A DNA stretch of 63,504 nucleotides from Acidimicrobiaceae bacterium (GTDB lineage Bacteria; Actinomycetota; Acidimicrobiia; Acidimicrobiales; Aldehydirespiratoraceae). The translations under genes and the position numbers were made by a program. The notes below the pieces were generated by a model, which was given only the letters and a program-made list of their open reading frames with translations, was not told the DNA's origin and searched no databases. How positions within the stretch are numbered: the stretch's first letter is position 1; every line of letters starts with the position of its first letter. Below, one piece after another: positions 20,305 to 43,089 of this stretch. The stretch is taken from NCBI GenBank assembly GCA_028819505.1, contig JAPPLH010000003.1:147998-211501 (forward strand), read 5' to 3'.

Positions 20305-20351
20305 GAATTGGCAGCGAGATGCACGCTATACGTGCATTACGCTGCCAATTC
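20305..20351. repeat. 47-bp two-tier palindrome, copy A1
   Basis: Outer arms GAATTGGCAGC and GCTGCCAATTC (11 bp), inner arms GCACG and CGTGC (5 bp), with 5-nt spacers between tiers (GAGAT, ATTAC) and a 5-nt apical loop CTATA. Copy A2 starts 72 bp further on. The pair lies between hpaE and the downstream aldehyde dehydrogenase. Confidence 0.95.
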
Positions 20352-36385: not shown

Positions 36386-37177
36386 CTACAGCACCGCTGA
36401 CACGGTGCCTACGCCTTCTATTTCGGCGTGCAGTTGGTCGCCGGGGGTTAGGGGGAGCATCCCGCATAGGGAGCCGGTCATGATGGTCTCGCCGGCCTGC
36501 AGCGGGGTGCCGTGTTGGCACATGGCGTCGGCCAGCCACAGCACCGAGTTCAGCGGATTGCCCAGGCAGGCGGCTCCGTTGCCGGTGGCGGCCGGCTCGC
36601 CGTTGATCGTCAAGTGCATCTCCACCCGGCGCAGGTCGACCGCGGCCAGCGGCACCGGGCGGGTGCCGAGCACGTAGAGGCCGCTGCCCGCGTTGTCGGC
36701 GATCATGTCGAAGTTGGTGATGTCCCACCGAAGGCGGCTGTCGACGATCTCCAGCGCGGGCAGCACGTAGGCGGTAGCGCTGATCACGTCGGCCACGGTG
36801 TGCTGGCCATTGTCGAGGTCGGAGCCGAGCACCACCGCGACCTCGACCTCGACCCGCGGCTCGATCAACCCGGCACCGCCGAGGTCGCAGCCCTCGGTGC
36901 GGCACTTGTCGGCGTACAGCACTCCCCATATCGGCTCGTCCATGCCGAGCTGAGCCTGGACGGCCGGGTTCGTCAAGCCCACCTTGTGCCCGCTGATCCG
37001 GCGGCCGGCTCCGAGCCAGTGGTCGGTGTTGATCTGCTGCACCGCATACCCGGCCTCAGGGCCGGCGGAGTCACCCAGCAGGCCGCGCACCGGCTCGCAG
37101 GGAACACCGGCGACCATGGCGTCTCTCAGCCGCCCGGCCGCTTCCGCGAGCGCTCCATGCATGGGTGAATCGGTCAT
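36386..37177 (-). CDS. hpaH: 2-oxo-hept-4-ene-1,7-dioate hydratase (2-keto-4-pentenoate hydratase family)
   Basis: A 263-residue FAH-superfamily hydratase. RRISGHKVGLTNPAVQ, the metal-binding EPRVEVEVAVVLG and the closing GETIMTGSLCGMLPLTPGD match HpaH/MhpD. In the homoprotocatechuate pathway it hydrates the HpaG product before aldolase cleavage. A good ribosome site (AAGGAG) precedes ATG 37177. It is 14 kb from hpaEFG and is the last gene behind the formate dehydrogenase genes, an odd place. Confidence 0.85.
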   Translation of the reverse strand: MTDSPMHGALAEAAGRLRDAMVAGVPCEPVRGLLGDSAGPEAGYAVQQINTDHWLGAGRRISGHKVGLTNPAVQAQLGMDEPIWGVLYADKCRTEGCDLGGAGLIEPRVEVEVAVVLGSDLDNGQHTVADVISATAYVLPALEIVDSRLRWDITNFDMIADNAGSGLYVLGTRPVPLAAVDLRRVEMHLTINGEPAATGNGAACLGNPLNSVLWLADAMCQHGTPLQAGETIMTGSLCGMLPLTPGDQLHAEIEGVGTVSAVL

Positions 37178-37226: not shown

Positions 37227-38087
37227 TCACTCGCCGTGGACGTACTGCCAGCCGAAGCGGCCCTTGATGCAGAGATGGCCGCTGGTGACCGAATGGTCGG
37301 ACGGGGAGGTGACCTTCACGATCCGCTCGTCCTGAACGTGCAGGTCGAGGTTGCAGCCCACCCCGCAGTAGGAGCACACCGTGCGGGTGACCGTCTGGTC
37401 CTCCGGGCGCCACTCCCCCACCTCGCGCAGGTCGTACTCGGTCTTGAACTGGAGGGCGCCGGTGGGGCACACCCCCACGCAGTTGCCGCAGTAGACGCAG
37501 GCCGAGTCGGGCAGGGCCACGTCGAACTCGGTGGAGATCCGGGCGTCGAAGCCCCGGCCGGCCACCGCGATGGCGAAGGTGTGCTGGGCGTCGTCGCCGC
37601 AGGCCTCCACGCACTTGTAGCACAGCACGCACTTGGAGTAGTCCCGGATGTAGAGCTCGTCCTGGACCTTGACCGGCTCCTCGACCCGCTCGACCGGATG
37701 GTCCTCGTCGCCGTAGCGGTCCGGGTCGGCGCCGTAGGCCTTCATCCAGCGCTGCAGGTCGTCGGCCTGGCTCAGGTCCACTCCCGAGCCGAGGAACTCG
37801 AGCACCATGCGGCGGCTGTGGCGCACCCGGGGAGTGTCGGTCTGCACGACCATCCCCTCGGTAGCGGGCCGGGAGCACGACGGCACCAGCGCCCGGGACC
37901 CCTCCAACTCCACCACGCACACCCGGCACACGTTGACCGGGGTCAGGTTCTCGGCCCAGCACAGCGTGGGGGTCTCGATGCCGGCCTCGACGCAGGCGGC
38001 GTGGATGGTGGAGCCCTCCGCCACCTCGACGGGACGGCCGTCGATGGTGAGCGTGACCGCGGTCTCTGTGATGGTCGTCTCGGTCAT
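37227..38087 (-). CDS. Formate dehydrogenase alpha subunit, N-terminal iron-sulfur half
   Basis: A 286-residue protein carrying four cluster sites. A NuoG-like 2Fe-2S domain has C43, C54, C57 and C71. Two ferredoxin-type 4Fe-4S sites follow (C153/156/159/163 and C197/200/203/207). Last comes the molybdopterin-oxidoreductase 4Fe-4S module CSYCGVGC with C238, C241, C245 and C273. In ordinary NAD-dependent formate dehydrogenases this is continuous with the molybdenum domain; here it stops at FGWQYVHGE, exactly where the normal chain continues into the domain encoded at 40120-42048. So this is one half of a split alpha subunit. Start ATG 38087 (MTETTITE) is preferred over 38126. Confidence 0.88.
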   Translation of the reverse strand: MTETTITETAVTLTIDGRPVEVAEGSTIHAACVEAGIETPTLCWAENLTPVNVCRVCVVELEGSRALVPSCSRPATEGMVVQTDTPRVRHSRRMVLEFLGSGVDLSQADDLQRWMKAYGADPDRYGDEDHPVERVEEPVKVQDELYIRDYSKCVLCYKCVEACGDDAQHTFAIAVAGRGFDARISTEFDVALPDSACVYCGNCVGVCPTGALQFKTEYDLREVGEWRPEDQTVTRTVCSYCGVGCNLDLHVQDERIVKVTSPSDHSVTSGHLCIKGRFGWQYVHGE

Positions 38088-38172
38088 CGGGAGGGTGCCG
38101 ACGCTACCAGGCGCAGGGCCGCGCACCGTCGGCGACCGTGCCGGGCGGGCGGGCGGACGGCGACAGCGGACA

Positions 38173-39939
38173 TCAAGGCGACGGCGCCTCCCGGATGAGG
38201 CCGAGCGCCAGGGCGGAGCGGACCGCCGAGGCAGCGGTGTGGCCCAGGCCGCAGATGGAGGCGTCCACCATGACCTCGGCCATCTCGCCGATCAGCGCCC
38301 GGCGGGCCGGCGACAGCGACCCTCGCCTCTGCATCTGGACCAGCGTCTCGTGCTGGCGCACCGCCCCCACCCGGCACGGAACGCACTGCCCGCACGACTC
38401 GTCGCGGAAGAACTCGGCGATGCGCACCACGACGCCGGTCATGTCGTCGGACGTGTCGAAGGCCATCACCACGCCCGAGCCGAGGGTGGTGCCCGCGGCC
38501 CGGGTGTCCTCCAGCGTCAGCGGCAGCCCGAGCGAGTCGGGGCCGACGAACGATCCGGCCGCGCCGCCCATCAGCACCGCCTGGAGCTCGCCGTTGCCTG
38601 CGATCCCGCCGGCCAGTTCCAACAGGTCTCCCAGCGTCGTTCCGAACGGCACCTCGTAGAGGCCGGGCCGCCCGACCTTGCCCGACAGGCACAGCAGCTT
38701 GGTGCCGGGAGAGCGCTCGGTCCCGCGGGTCCGGTAGGCGTCGGGACCCTCGATGACGATGTCGAGAACGTTCAGCAGGGTCTCCGGGTTGTTGACGGCG
38801 GTCGGCTCGCCGAACAGGCCGTGGGTGGTGGGGAACGGCGGCTTGTTGCGAGGCTCCCCCCGGAACCCCTCCAGCGAGTTGAACAGGGCCGTCTCCTCGC
38901 CGCAGATGTAGGCGCCCGCCCCCCGCCAGACAGCGATGTCGAAGTCGTGGCCGGTGCCGGCCGCGTCCTCGCCGAGGAGTCCCGCGGCCCGGGCCGCGTC
39001 GATCGCTCCCTGAAGTCGGGCGGTGGCCAGCGGGTACTCGCCGCGGATGTAGATCCAGCCGTTGCGGGCCCCGGTGGCCAGGCCGGCGATGGACATGGCC
39101 TCGATCACCGCGAACGGGTCTCGCTCCATGACGATGCGGTCCTTGAAGGTGCCCGGCTCGGACTCGTCGCAGTTGGCCACCACGTGCTTGGGCCGCCCAC
39201 CCTCGGCGGCCACGGCCCGCCACTTCACCCCGGTCGGGAAGGCGGCGCCGCCCCGTCCCGACAGCCCCGAGGCCGCCACCGCCTCCAGCACCGCCCCCGC
39301 GCCCATCTCGCCGGCTCTGCGCAGCGCCTCATAGCCGCCGTGGGCGCGGTAGGACTCCAGCGAGGAGGGGTCGGCCACGCCGATGCGGCGCAGCAGGCGC
39401 AGCGACTCGTCGCCGGCCTGGGGCAGCTCGAAGGGCTCGGCGTCGGCGGGCACGTGATCGGGCCGTCCCCCGGCGCCCTGCACGAACAGCGCCGGCGCGC
39501 GCTCGCACTGGCCCAGGCAGGGCCCCAGATGCACATGGCCGCCCGCCGCCCGCACCGAGGCGGCCAGGTCGTCGTATCCCGCGATCTGGCAGGCCGCGTC
39601 GACGCACACGTGGAAGGTGTCGCCGTCGTGGTCGGGCGGCTCGGTGCGGAACAGGTCGTAGAAGGTGGCCACCCCGAACGCCTCGGCCGGGGGCACGTCC
39701 AGCACCTCGGCCACATAGTTGATCCCGCCCGGGCTGATCCAGCCGGCCTCGTTCTGGAGGGCGTGCAACGCCGGCAGAAGGCAGTGGCGCCGCGCAAGGC
39801 GCCGGGCTCGCCCAGAGGTGACCAGCCGCTCGGTCTCGGGCTGCACCACGGCGTCCACACCCCGCTCGCGCAGCGCCTCATCGACCGCGGCGGCCTCAGC
39901 GTCGGAGGCGCGGTCCGCGCCCAGGTAGATGTCGGTCAT
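38173..39939 (-). CDS. Formate dehydrogenase NADH-binding subunit, NuoE-NuoF fusion
   Basis: A 588-residue fusion. The N-terminal 170 residues are a NuoE-like thioredoxin-fold 2Fe-2S domain with cysteines in VCVDAACQ and CLGQCERAP. The rest is NuoF: GRGGAAFPTGVKW and ESEPGTFKDR bind FMN and NADH, GAGAYICGEETAL is conserved, and the 4Fe-4S ligands are in ESCGQCVPCRVG and SICGLG. It passes electrons from the iron-sulfur half to NAD. It lies between the two halves of the alpha subunit, 180 bp behind the catalytic half (a gap filled by two 47-bp palindromes) and 85 bp ahead of the iron-sulfur half. Confidence 0.9.
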   Translation of the reverse strand: MTDIYLGADRASDAEAAAVDEALRERGVDAVVQPETERLVTSGRARRLARRHCLLPALHALQNEAGWISPGGINYVAEVLDVPPAEAFGVATFYDLFRTEPPDHDGDTFHVCVDAACQIAGYDDLAASVRAAGGHVHLGPCLGQCERAPALFVQGAGGRPDHVPADAEPFELPQAGDESLRLLRRIGVADPSSLESYRAHGGYEALRRAGEMGAGAVLEAVAASGLSGRGGAAFPTGVKWRAVAAEGGRPKHVVANCDESEPGTFKDRIVMERDPFAVIEAMSIAGLATGARNGWIYIRGEYPLATARLQGAIDAARAAGLLGEDAAGTGHDFDIAVWRGAGAYICGEETALFNSLEGFRGEPRNKPPFPTTHGLFGEPTAVNNPETLLNVLDIVIEGPDAYRTRGTERSPGTKLLCLSGKVGRPGLYEVPFGTTLGDLLELAGGIAGNGELQAVLMGGAAGSFVGPDSLGLPLTLEDTRAAGTTLGSGVVMAFDTSDDMTGVVVRIAEFFRDESCGQCVPCRVGAVRQHETLVQMQRRGSLSPARRALIGEMAEVMVDASICGLGHTAASAVRSALALGLIREAPSP

Positions 39940-39979
39940 TCGGTTGCGCTCCTAGCCGGTCCCCGTCGCGCTCCGTGCG

Positions 39980-40026
39980 GAACTGGCAGCAGAATGCACG
40001 CCTACCGTGCAAAACGCTGCCAATTC
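39980..40026. repeat. 47-bp two-tier palindrome, copy B1
   Basis: GAACTGGCAGC, AGAAT, GCACG, CCTAC, CGTGC, AAAAC, GCTGCCAATTC. It lies in the gap between the formate dehydrogenase catalytic gene and the NuoEF-like gene. B2 starts 71 bp further on. Confidence 0.95.
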
Positions 40027-40050
40027 TCCAGCCGCCACCAGATCTGTGCG

Positions 40051-40097
40051 GAATTGGCAGCAGAATGCACGCCTACCGTGCAAAACGCTGCCAATTC
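40051..40097. repeat. 47-bp two-tier palindrome, copy B2
   Basis: GAATTGGCAGC, AGAAT, GCACG, CCTAC, CGTGC, AAAAC, GCTGCCAATTC. Outer and inner arms pair perfectly. It differs from B1 by a single base in the left outer arm; the 24-bp spacer between B1 and B2 is unlike the spacers of the other pairs. Confidence 0.95.
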
Positions 40098-40119
40098 CGG
40101 TGGGTGGGTCGGTCATGTG

Positions 40120-42048
40120 CTAGGCGGGGGCGTGCTCCGGCTCGAGCTTGGAGATGCGGATGGCGGCCGCCTTGAACTCCGACGTGCCCGAGCGCGGGTC
40201 CCAGTCGTCGTTGGTCAGGATGTTGGCGTCCACCAGTTCCGGGAAGTGGAAGGTGGTGAACGTGAGCCCTGCGGGGATGTCGGGCTGGAGGCGCACGTCC
40301 ATCGCCACCGAGCCGCGGGGCGAACTGACCAGCACTCTCTCCCCGTCGGCGATGCCGAGCTCGGCCGCGTCGGCCGGGTTGACGTCTATGGCGTCGCCGT
40401 AGCGGATCGGCGAGGCATAGCCGCCCGACTGGACGCCCGTGTTGTAGGAGTCGAGGGCCCGTCCGGTGGTGAGCCGCAGCGGGAACTCGTCGGTTAGCTG
40501 CTCGGGCGGGCCGGCGTGGTGGACGATGCTGAACGGCGCCGGGTCCCGGCCCCCGAGGTCGTCGGCCCACAGCCAGCCGTGCAGGAACTCGGTGCCGGGA
40601 TGATCCGCACTGGGACAGGGCCACTGGATGCCGCCGGAGGCCTCTAGGCGCTCCCAGGACATGCCGGTGTGCATCGGCGACAGCGACCGCATCTCGTCCC
40701 ACAGCTCCTCGGGGCCGGGCTCGCCCCAGTCGACGCCGAGGCGGCGGGCCAGGTCTCCGATGATGTCGATGTCGTGGCGGGCCTGGCCGGGCGGCGGCAC
40801 GGCGGGGCGCACACGCTGCACCCGCCGCTCGCTGGAAGTGACCGTGCCCTCGGACTCGGCCCAGGCAACCGAGGCGGGCAGCACCACGTCGGCCATCTCG
40901 GCGGTGCGGGTCATGAAGATGTCCTGCACCACCAGGATGTCGAGGCCGGCCAGCAGCTTACGGGCGTGGCCGATGTTGGCCTCGGAGTCCGCCGGGTTCT
41001 CGCCGATCACGTAGCAGGCCCGCAGCTCGCCGGCCTCCATCGCCTCGAACATCAGCGTCAGGTGCTTGCCGGGCACGCCGTTGAGCTCGACGCCCCAAGC
41101 GGCCTCGAACTTGGCCCGGACCGCGCCGTCTTCCACGTCCTGGAAGCCGGGGAACTTGTTGGGTATGGCGCCCATGTCGCCGCCGCCCTGCACGTTGTTC
41201 TGGCCCCTCAAGGGGCACAGTCCCGAGCCCCAGCGGCCCACATGGCCGGTGAGCAGGGCCAGATTGCAGAGCGACACCACGTTGTCGACCGCGTTGTGGT
41301 GCTCGGTGATGCCCAGCGTCCAGAGGATCTGGGCCTTGGAGGCGGTGGCGTAGGCGTGGGCCATCTCCCGGATGGCCTCCGCGGGCACGCCGGTCTCGAC
41401 GGCCGCCCAGTCGAGGGTGTACGACTCGACGTGGGCCGCGTAGGCCTCGAAGCCCTGGGTGGAGCGGGCGATGAAGTCGGGATCGTGCAGCCCGGCGCGG
41501 ATGATCTCGCGCCCCATGGCGTTGGCCAGCGCGATGTCGGTGCCGACCGACAGTCCCAGCCAGCGGTCGGCGAACTTGGCCGAGGACGTGCGCCGGGGGT
41601 CGATGGCGTACATCCGGGCGCCGTTGCGGAGGCCCTTGAGAACGTGGTGGAAGAAGATCGGGTGGGCTTCACGGGCGTTGGAGCCCCACAGCAGGACGAC
41701 GTCGGCCTGCTCGACCTCCGCGTACGACGAGGTCCCGCCTCCCGCTCCGAACACTGTCGCCAGACCGACGACGGAGGGAGCGTGTCAAGTTCTGTTGCAG
41801 GAATCGATGTTGTTCGACCCGATGGCGGTGCGGATGAACTTCTGGGCGGCGTAGTTCATCTCGTTGGTCGCCTTCGAGCAGCTGAACATGCCGAAGCCGT
41901 CCGGTCCGTGGCGGTCGAGGACGGCCCGGAAGCCGTCGGCGGCCCGGTCGAGGGCCTCGTCCCAGGCGGCGGGACGCAGCCTCCCGTTGTCGCGCACCAT
42001 CGGCGTGGTCAGCCGCGGCAGCCGCTTGTCGCGTGATCGTCGGCCCAT
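40120..42048 (-). CDS. fdhA: Selenocysteine-containing formate dehydrogenase, catalytic molybdopterin half
   Basis: A 642-residue molybdopterin oxidoreductase read through one in-frame UGA (41785-41787), which would be Sec88 in CNRT-U-HAPSVVGL. This is the molybdenum-ligand position that is Cys or Sec in formate dehydrogenases, followed by the conserved His. Arg in PLRGQNNVQGG (about R281) and the C-terminal dinucleotide-binding domain from about residue 500 are also present. A SECIS hairpin follows the UGA. The first residues, RLPRLTTPMVRDNGRL, correspond to the sequence after the 4Fe-4S module of normal alpha subunits; that module is encoded separately at 37227-38087. Start ATG 42048 has a GGAAGAGG ribosome site. 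Without recoding, the gene would wrongly look like a 109-residue and a 544-residue ORF. Confidence 0.92.
41756..41787 (-). promoter_or_regulatory. Bacterial SECIS element and selenocysteine UGA codon
   Basis: On the minus strand the UGA (41787-41785) is followed by 12 bases and then GUCGUC-GGUCU-GGCGAC (41772-41756): a 6-bp stem, with one U-G pair, closed by the apical loop GGUCU. The E. coli fdhF SECIS has the same GGUCU loop at nearly the same distance (11 bases to its stem). SelB would bind this loop and deliver Sec-tRNA. Confidence 0.9.
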
Positions 42049-42091: not shown

Positions 42092-42976
42092 TCAACCCAG
42101 TGACAGGGTGTCACGCGCCTGGTCCGGGGACTGAATCCTGCCCCCCATTGCCTCCACTACCTCTCGCGCCCGGTTCACGAGATCCGCATTGGAGGCGAAG
42201 ACGCCGCGGGCCAAGTACAGGTTGTCCTCCAAGCCCACCCTGATGTGTCCGCCGAGCAGCATGGACTGGGCCACCCATGGAATCTGGCTGGCCGACAGCG
42301 CGAAGCTGGTGAACTCGGCGCCGGCCGGCAGCAGGCGGACCAGCGCGGCCAGCAGGCCCACGTCGGTGGGCGTGCCGTAGGGGATGCCGGTACACAGCTG
42401 GACCCACGGCGGATCGGCGATCAGGCCCTCGTCCACCAGCGTGTTGGCCAGCCAAAGGTGGCCGGTGTCGAATATCTCCAGCTCGGGCTTGACGCCGAGC
42501 TCCCGGACCCGCTTGGCCATGTCGCGGATCATGTTCGGGGTGCTCACGTACACCTGGTGGCCCTCGCCGAAGTTCAGAGTGCCGCAGTCGATGCTGCACA
42601 TGTCGGGCTTGAGGGCCTCCACGTGGGCGAGGCGCTCCAGGCCGCTGACGAGGTCGGTGCCGTCGGCGCCGAAGTCGAAGGGATCGGGGTCGCCGATCAG
42701 CAGGTCGCCGCCCATGCCCGCGGTGGTGTTGATGATCACGTCACCGTCGGACGCCCTCACCTGCTCGATCACCTGGCGGTACAGGTCCACGTCGCGGGCG
42801 CCCTTGCCGGTGGCCGGATCGCGCACGTGGATGTGCACTATCGCCGCGCCCGCATCGGCGGCCTCCAGTGCGGCCGTCGCGATCTGGGAGGGCGTTACCG
42901 GCAGGTCGGGATGCTTGCCGGCGGCGTCGCCCGCACCGGTCACCGCGCAGGTGATGATCGGGTTGCGGTTCACCAT
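42092..42976 (-). CDS. Beta-keto acid cleavage enzyme (BKACE, DUF849 family)
   Basis: A 294-residue TIM-barrel protein with the BKACE zinc motif IVHIHVRDPATG, the strand SIDCGTLNF and the C-terminal GGHIRVGLEDNLYL. The family condenses a beta-keto acid with acetyl-CoA to give acetoacetate and a CoA ester. One known branch acts on dehydrocarnitine and releases betainyl-CoA, which would connect to the methylated-amine genes here; the substrate cannot be fixed by eye. It lies 43 bp upstream of fdhA on the same strand and may head that operon. Start ATG 42976. Confidence 0.85.
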   Translation of the reverse strand: MVNRNPIITCAVTGAGDAAGKHPDLPVTPSQIATAALEAADAGAAIVHIHVRDPATGKGARDVDLYRQVIEQVRASDGDVIINTTAGMGGDLLIGDPDPFDFGADGTDLVSGLERLAHVEALKPDMCSIDCGTLNFGEGHQVYVSTPNMIRDMAKRVRELGVKPELEIFDTGHLWLANTLVDEGLIADPPWVQLCTGIPYGTPTDVGLLAALVRLLPAGAEFTSFALSASQIPWVAQSMLLGGHIRVGLEDNLYLARGVFASNADLVNRAREVVEAMGGRIQSPDQARDTLSLG

Positions 42977-43089
42977 CCCAACCCTACCGCGCCCGGCGAG
43001 CACGGACTGCCTCCGGGGACGGGCTTGCGGGCGTGCGCGGGCAGGTGCAAGCCCGCCGCGTCGGGGCGGGGAATCTCTCGCTCTTGTTC

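Follow-up and report, generated by a model that had tools for sequence, protein, structure and literature searches.

In Escherichia coli FDH-H (fdhF; structures 1aa6 and 1fdi) a selenocysteine (Sec) at the metal site is followed by a histidine, and a hairpin with a GGUCU loop lies about 11–12 nt after the UGA codon. This formate dehydrogenase (FDH) consists of one polypeptide that includes its own [4Fe-4S] domain, and is part of formate hydrogenlyase rather than being NAD-linked. The alpha subunits of the FdsABG/FDH1 enzymes, represented by those of Rhodobacter capsulatus (6tg9) and Methylorubrum extorquens (7vw6), are also made as one chain. FDH alpha subunits top a published list of bacterial selenoproteins (PMC5029168), and the portions of the literature used here describe Sec-containing FDHs in Actinobacteria (PMC2830990) as well as actinobacterial selenoproteins more broadly (PMC1794560). 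Among described enzymes the nearest is FDH3 (WP_084681743.1 and neighbouring proteins), from Actinomycetospora chiangmaiensis DSM 45062, which is termed a cytoplasmic NAD-dependent FDH with Sec in FdhA3 in the part of its description drawn on here (PMC7176365), and Sec-containing NAD-type FDHs are thus a known kind of enzyme. According to the same part of that account, all three FDH3 subunits (FdhA3, 640 aa; FdhB3, 614 aa; FdhC3, 316 aa) were detected by proteomics at low abundance, and the cultures accumulated formate to a molar ratio of ~0.6 when no selenite was supplied but hardly any when it was (PMC7176365). The selenite effect is not attributable to FDH3 alone, because two further Sec-FDH systems are reported there for A. 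chiangmaiensis (PMC7176365).

The locus described here lies in a 63,504-nucleotide stretch (the window) of contig JAPPLH010000003.1, which belongs to a metagenome-assembled genome (MAG) of an Acidimicrobiaceae bacterium (3.73 Mb, 167 contigs, 94.2% complete, 3.8% contamination). Three leftwards-transcribed genes are predicted, with near certainty, to encode a cytoplasmic NAD-type molybdenum (or tungsten) FDH with Sec as the metal ligand and an alpha subunit split between two of the genes. These are fdhA (40120–42048, minus strand), coding for the catalytic subunit in 642 codons with one UGA read through; fdhB (38173–39939, minus strand), coding for a fused NuoE-NuoF-like NADH-oxidoreductase subunit of 588 aa (PF01257, PF01512, PF10531 and PF10589); and a gene for an Fe-S subunit of 299 aa (37227–38126, minus strand, perhaps starting from an ATG at 38087), which corresponds to FdhC in FDH3 naming. 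The subunit sizes of FDH3 fit this split arrangement (640, 614 and 316 aa there, 642, 588 and 299 aa here), the likeness being one of size between unaligned sequences; FDH3 comes from another organism, and a split of the alpha subunit is not discussed in the part of its description used here (PMC7176365).

FdhA shares both sequence and fold with E. coli FDH-H. Its best sequence match in the PDB is the FdhF subunit of HDCR (7qv7, E 5e-152), with the PDB alignments starting from residue 12 (counted from the ATG), and a Foldseek search matches it to FDH-H (1fdi, E 1.7e-54). An AlphaFold model of FdhA (pLDDT 73), built on 25 aligned rows, is similar to FDH-H and FDH1; residues 85–94 around the Sec are among those modelled with low confidence, and the alignment is too shallow for this to be interpreted. 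The corresponding model of the Fe-S subunit is poor (pLDDT 52).

The fdhA frame opens with an ATG at 42048, preceded by GGGAAGAGG, and closes with a TAG at 40120. It contains a single internal stop, the TGA of codon 88 (41787–41785, minus strand), located at the Sec/Cys molybdenum-ligand position in the peptide IDSCNRT-U-HAPSVVGLATVFG; the residues directly after U88 are HAPSVVGLA, and the metal ligand is thus followed by His. The earlier note, made from the sequence alone, had placed an in-frame UGA at exactly this site, and both the minus-strand sequence and the single 642-codon frame bear this out. It had also written of the catalytic half of the FDH as interrupted by UGA, which holds for the UGA but not for the "half", the catalytic part being a separate gene of its own.

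The same UGA is present in fdhA of all 80 relatives fetched (the best 80 of at least 578), and in the window's gene and these relatives together (81/81) a TGA at the identical codon is the sole in-frame stop in the matched region. Actinomycetota are named in the titles of 76 of these best 80 of at least 578 relatives, mostly as Acidimicrobiia or lower ranks within the class, and the other four titles read merely "bacterium" or "marine group bacterium"; the guess that the DNA came from a probable actinobacterium was a good one. One UGA-containing gene (L048) is from a cultured relative, Ilumatobacter nonamiensis, and lies on a contig that stops short of fdhB. Sampling 296 genomes of the class, some of which may be among the 80 relatives, gave 96 fdhA matches (at least 60% identity, covering the residue) in 94 genomes, and all 96 have the in-frame TGA; one more match at this identity (G090) stops short of the Sec residue. 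Addition of 44 loci from a phylum search and from chosen places to the 81 fdhA genes gives a pooled set of 125 loci, in 124 of which the Sec codon is readable, as TGA in 119 and as TGC or TGT in five. The remaining locus (L139) breaks at the Sec codon and was left out of codon scoring; its fdhA match, in genome G461, falls into two pieces in the region of this codon, perhaps through a frameshift or an assembly fault. Six genes are represented twice (L113, L114, L115, L121, L129 and L132, identical to L140–L145) and the collections may overlap, and distinct sequences were therefore also counted, with 90 among the 119 UGA loci. A search of plasmids gave, in each of 1567 records, a best place with less than 60% identity.

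MAGs can contain errors, and five loci without Sec have Cys at this residue, so a TGA arising as a sequencing or assembly error for TGC or TGT, or belonging to a pseudogene, deserves consideration. We regard this as extremely unlikely. A read error or a decayed gene is untenable because the identical UGA recurs in all 80 fetched relatives; the 81 genes come from different assemblies and have no second in-frame stop in the match, third codon positions have a GC content of 91% upstream of the TGA and 94% downstream, and the bases of the hairpin described below are conserved at synonymous positions. The statement in the earlier note that neither frameshift nor pseudogene accounts for the interruption is thus upheld. 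We conclude that the fdhA UGA is very probably decoded as Sec, as in known selenium enzymes, to judge by these sequence comparisons.

The genome contains the machinery that such decoding would use. On contig C123, selA (369 bits against a cut-off of 268) adjoins selB (274 bits as a six-frame match and 293 bits as an open reading frame, against a cut-off of 242); selD (354 bits) lies on contig C28, and a tRNA-Sec is found at 66.9 bits against a cut-off of 47, with the anticodon TCA according to ARAGORN. All four genes that had been predicted to lie elsewhere in the genome (selA, selB, selC for tRNA-Sec, and selD) are therefore present, judged by profile scores and by the anticodon. The frame of fdhA is open once its TGA is read as a residue, which would also be expected if UGA had been reassigned to an ordinary amino acid throughout the lineage. 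Such a reassignment is so improbable as to be negligible: UGA is an ordinary stop elsewhere in the window, since seven of the ten genes checked there end in TGA, the TGA of fdhA is confined to one position, that of the metal ligand, and a UCA tRNA-Sec is present together with SelA and SelB.

Because the genome is a MAG and its sel genes are not on the window's contig, relatives were examined for co-occurrence. Two single-contig genomes (G002 and G027) have UGA-containing fdhA, selB and tRNA-Sec on that one contig. SelB is found at E≤1e-60 in 88 of the 94 genomes with UGA-containing fdhA and in 109 of the 202 other sampled genomes, many of the latter 109 matches being weak and under the family cut-off. 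Five of the six UGA-fdhA genomes lacking SelB have a tRNA-Sec, and the sixth, a 940-contig genome, has neither. Two matches to tRNA-Sec at 48–49 bits, over the Rfam cut-off, include a tRNA-Ser in the window's genome; the cut-off alone is therefore not specific for tRNA-Sec, and the top match in each of 28 genomes was classified with ARAGORN, giving 23 tRNA-Sec (TCA) and five tRNA-Ser. Among 19 UGA-type genomes tested, 17 have a tRNA-Sec with the anticodon tca; for the other two (G252 and G197) the best matches are tRNA-Ser, with SelB nonetheless present in G252. The four Cys-type genomes, which share one genus code (f73/g171), have no SelB above the cut-off, and tRNA-Sec is present in one of them and absent from three.

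Several further features of the Sec genes were seen. The selD gene of the window's genome (L022, contig C28, 2998–1964, minus strand) has a UGA of its own (TGA at 2959–2957, in HGAG-U-ACK). The stem that follows it is AGAUCG/CGAUCU, a compensatory difference from the AGCUCG/CGAGCU seen by eye in six other fetched UGA-type selD genes, and the loop of this hairpin is not GGUCU, unlike that of fdhA in the same genome. Cys-type selD accounts for 24 of the 31 selD genes listed. Four genomes of one group in the same class (f29/g66: G025, G029, G033 and G085), each of about 1.0–1.1 Mb and absent from the fdhA matches listed, have tRNA-Sec at 75–76 bits, a UGA-type selD, and a SelB-like frame of 560–565 aa that is under the family cut-off and spans nearly the whole model.

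A SECIS-like hairpin of 17 nt, GUCGUC-GGUCU-GGCGAC, starts 12 nt after the fdhA UGA (41756–41772, minus strand), with a 6-bp stem (41772–41767 paired with 41761–41756) and a GGUCU loop (41766–41762), and is present exactly as the earlier note had written it. Scanning both strands of the window for a TGA followed at 9–14 nt by a GGTCT loop within a 6-bp stem gives a single hit, at fdhA, with 0.03 hits expected per simulated window (200 first-order simulations). The stem and the GGTCT loop are kept in all 119 UGA loci, and the loop is found in none of the five Cys-type loci. All six stem pairs are standard in the 90 distinct UGA sequences (540/540 pair cells), compared with a mean of 518 and a maximum of 526 such cells in 2000 shuffles.

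These comparisons also bear on the possibility that the UGA is a true stop, with a short N-terminal peptide ending there and a separately made downstream protein. A mechanical list of open reading frames does split the fdhA region into two, the downstream frame having a GTG start and 544 codons (41754–40120). The first 87 residues, however, carry FDH sequence, the stop falls on the metal-ligand residue, and a GGUCU hairpin accompanies the UGA in every UGA locus and is missing from every Cys locus; termination at this codon is accordingly most improbable, and we favor its being read as Sec.

It could also be supposed that the hairpin arises incidentally from conservation of the protein and that recoding depends on some other signal. 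The residues VVGLA are invariant across the 81 FdhA proteins, and a control in which the 3' side is slid to +3 still pairs 82.8% of cells. Folding energies do not set the hairpin apart: 132 of 200 shuffles of a 43-nt segment fold at least as well as the native sequence (z +0.55), as do 144 of 200 for a 56-nt segment and 25 of 200 for the 26-nt core (z -1.18). The hairpin is present in all three centroid or minimum structures (43, 56 and 26 nt), with an energy no better than that of shuffles for the two longer segments, and thermodynamic folding was rejected as evidence for a SECIS element. The third stem pair is seen as C-G, G-C and U-A, with at least nine changes on the best tree (a protein tree of 118 rows), and both of its sides change in five of five independent pairs on starred branches (sign test p 0.0625). 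The +3 slide nevertheless yields the same numbers of further pair types and of both-side types as the true register; further pair types were thus rejected as proof of covariation, and we therefore rely on the 540/540 pair cells, the loss of the loop in Cys-type genes, and the recurrence of paired synonymous changes. A match to the Rfam SECIS_3 family (RF01989) was likewise set aside, as it reaches 15.3 bits (E 0.73) against a gathering score of 63; the hairpin shares with that family its position after the UGA and its register, and its score is under the cut-off. Against an accidental hairpin, GGUCU is gone from Cys-type genes whose residues are similar, along with one to three of the six stem pairs, and the compensatory synonymous change GTC/GCG to GTG/GCC recurs in the stem. 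The codons of the hairpin (+5 to +10) moreover have the strongest synonymous conservation in the gene, ranking first among 632 six-codon windows, with a mean same-codon fraction of 0.956 versus a background of 0.537 (256 positions). An accidental origin is thus very unlikely, and a hairpin that serves the recoding of the UGA is the reading we adopt.

The alpha subunit has the domain content of FdsABG/FDH1, with its residues aligning across two genes here instead of one. FdhA aligns to residues 307–932 of FdsA (6tg9) and contains PF00384 and PF01568, with PF04879 (Molybdop_Fe4S4) absent from it in a Pfam search. The Fe-S subunit aligns to FdsA residues 24–303 (6tg9/9wxb) and contains PF13510, Fer4 and PF04879 (residues 245–297), and thus combines a NuoG/HoxU-like ferredoxin part with the [4Fe-4S] Molybdop_Fe4S4 domain of an alpha subunit. 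The 672 positions of TIGR01591 (Fdh-alpha) divide in the same way, positions 51–672 matching the catalytic gene (635.4 bits) and positions 1–49 the Fe-S gene (55.6 bits), and neither gene reaches the equivalog cut-off of 666.25 bits in one protein. Because the residues of both the model and FdsA divide over two genes flanking fdhB, the alpha subunit is split, with the break at the border of its [4Fe-4S] domain. By these assignments the subunit is encoded by two genes of an operon in the order catalytic–fdhB–Fe-S, the first ~300 residues forming a separate gene behind fdhB; in FdsABG/FDH1 they are part of the single alpha chain, and the ligand at the metal site also differs, being Sec here. As in the FdsABG/FDH1 type, a NuoF-like FMN/NADH subunit with a NuoE-like [2Fe-2S] part stands beside the alpha subunit.

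The order catalytic–fdhB–Fe-S holds in all 77 loci with at least 60% identity and a recognizable Fe-S match. In a further 36 loci no Fe-S match reaches 1e-10, mostly for want of enough downstream sequence; at 1e-8 one of them (L147) reveals a fused end. Six loci at a greater distance (L137, L138, L148 and L150–L152) carry the [4Fe-4S] part joined in frame ahead of the catalytic part, and in four of the six this fused gene sits behind fdhB. A pattern search recovers the four cysteines and the lysine of the [4Fe-4S] domain, whose roles we take to be as in FDH-H, in 82 of the 83 Fe-S matches; L152 alone deviates, with CAK in place of C[IVLM]K. Cys-type genes L133–L136 also have the split order, and the predicted split is thus shared by UGA-type genes and one branch of the Cys type that lacks the SECIS loop. 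The genomes of these four (G630, G443, G599 and G413) are large and of one genus code, and their FDHs show 61–64% identity; G630 has kept a tRNA-Sec (75.4 bits, anticodon tca).

We lean slightly towards seeing these enzymes as an actinobacterial FDH clade in which alpha was cut at the edge of the [4Fe-4S] domain, the severed part moved behind fdhB, and the active site is completed in trans. The simplest history would be that an ancestral fdhB-[FeS-catalytic] operon underwent circular permutation, through a tandem copy followed by partial loss. By analogy with the known bacterial mechanism, SelB carrying Sec-tRNA-Sec would bind the hairpin just after the UGA, which would then be decoded as Sec during translation. 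Homologous structures suggest that formate would be oxidized to CO2 at the Mo-Sec site, and homology to FdsABG/FDH1 that electrons would pass through the [4Fe-4S] cluster and the further Fe-S clusters of the separate Fe-S subunit to the NuoEF-like FdhB, which would reduce NAD+. Because the UGA sits in the first gene, SelB-dependent read-through could conceivably make the translation of fdhB and of the Fe-S gene depend on the supply of selenium.

If correctly read, this enzyme brings selenocysteine into the formate metabolism of the Acidimicrobiia, a class known largely from MAGs, and the split alpha subunit offers a natural test of how a [4Fe-4S] domain and a Mo site are assembled from two chains. 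Annotation of such genes may suffer, with the catalytic gene under the Fdh-alpha equivalog cut-off and its frame given as two by a mechanical list. Searches of the literature on selenocysteine and Acidimicrobiia, mostly at the title level, revealed no report of a Sec-FDH in this class, and searches at that level revealed no comment on a split of the FDH alpha subunit. In the portion of a sponge study used here, selA and selB are described as co-occurring in most symbiont bins and missing from most related references (PMC5649159); bin134 (MPNQ) of that study carries a UGA-containing fdhA (L102).

On either side of the fdh genes, close relatives have genes for proteins resembling 3-keto-5-aminohexanoate cleavage enzyme and 2-keto-4-pentenoate hydratase, and the counterparts in the window are at 42092–43003 and 36386–37177, both below the family cut-offs. 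The spacer between fdhA and fdhB (39940–40119, minus strand) is 180 nt long, compared with the 6 nt that separate the two matches in L025, and contains two 45-nt palindromic repeats (39981–40025 and 40052–40096); the segment 39968–40100 folds with z -5.9. The repeat (45–46 nt, AATTGGCAGC...GCTGCCAATT) recurs in several genomic stretches, sometimes in tandem pairs, with copies at 20306, 20378, 39981, 40052 and 45810 in the window, at 9935 in L020, and at 7825 in L023.
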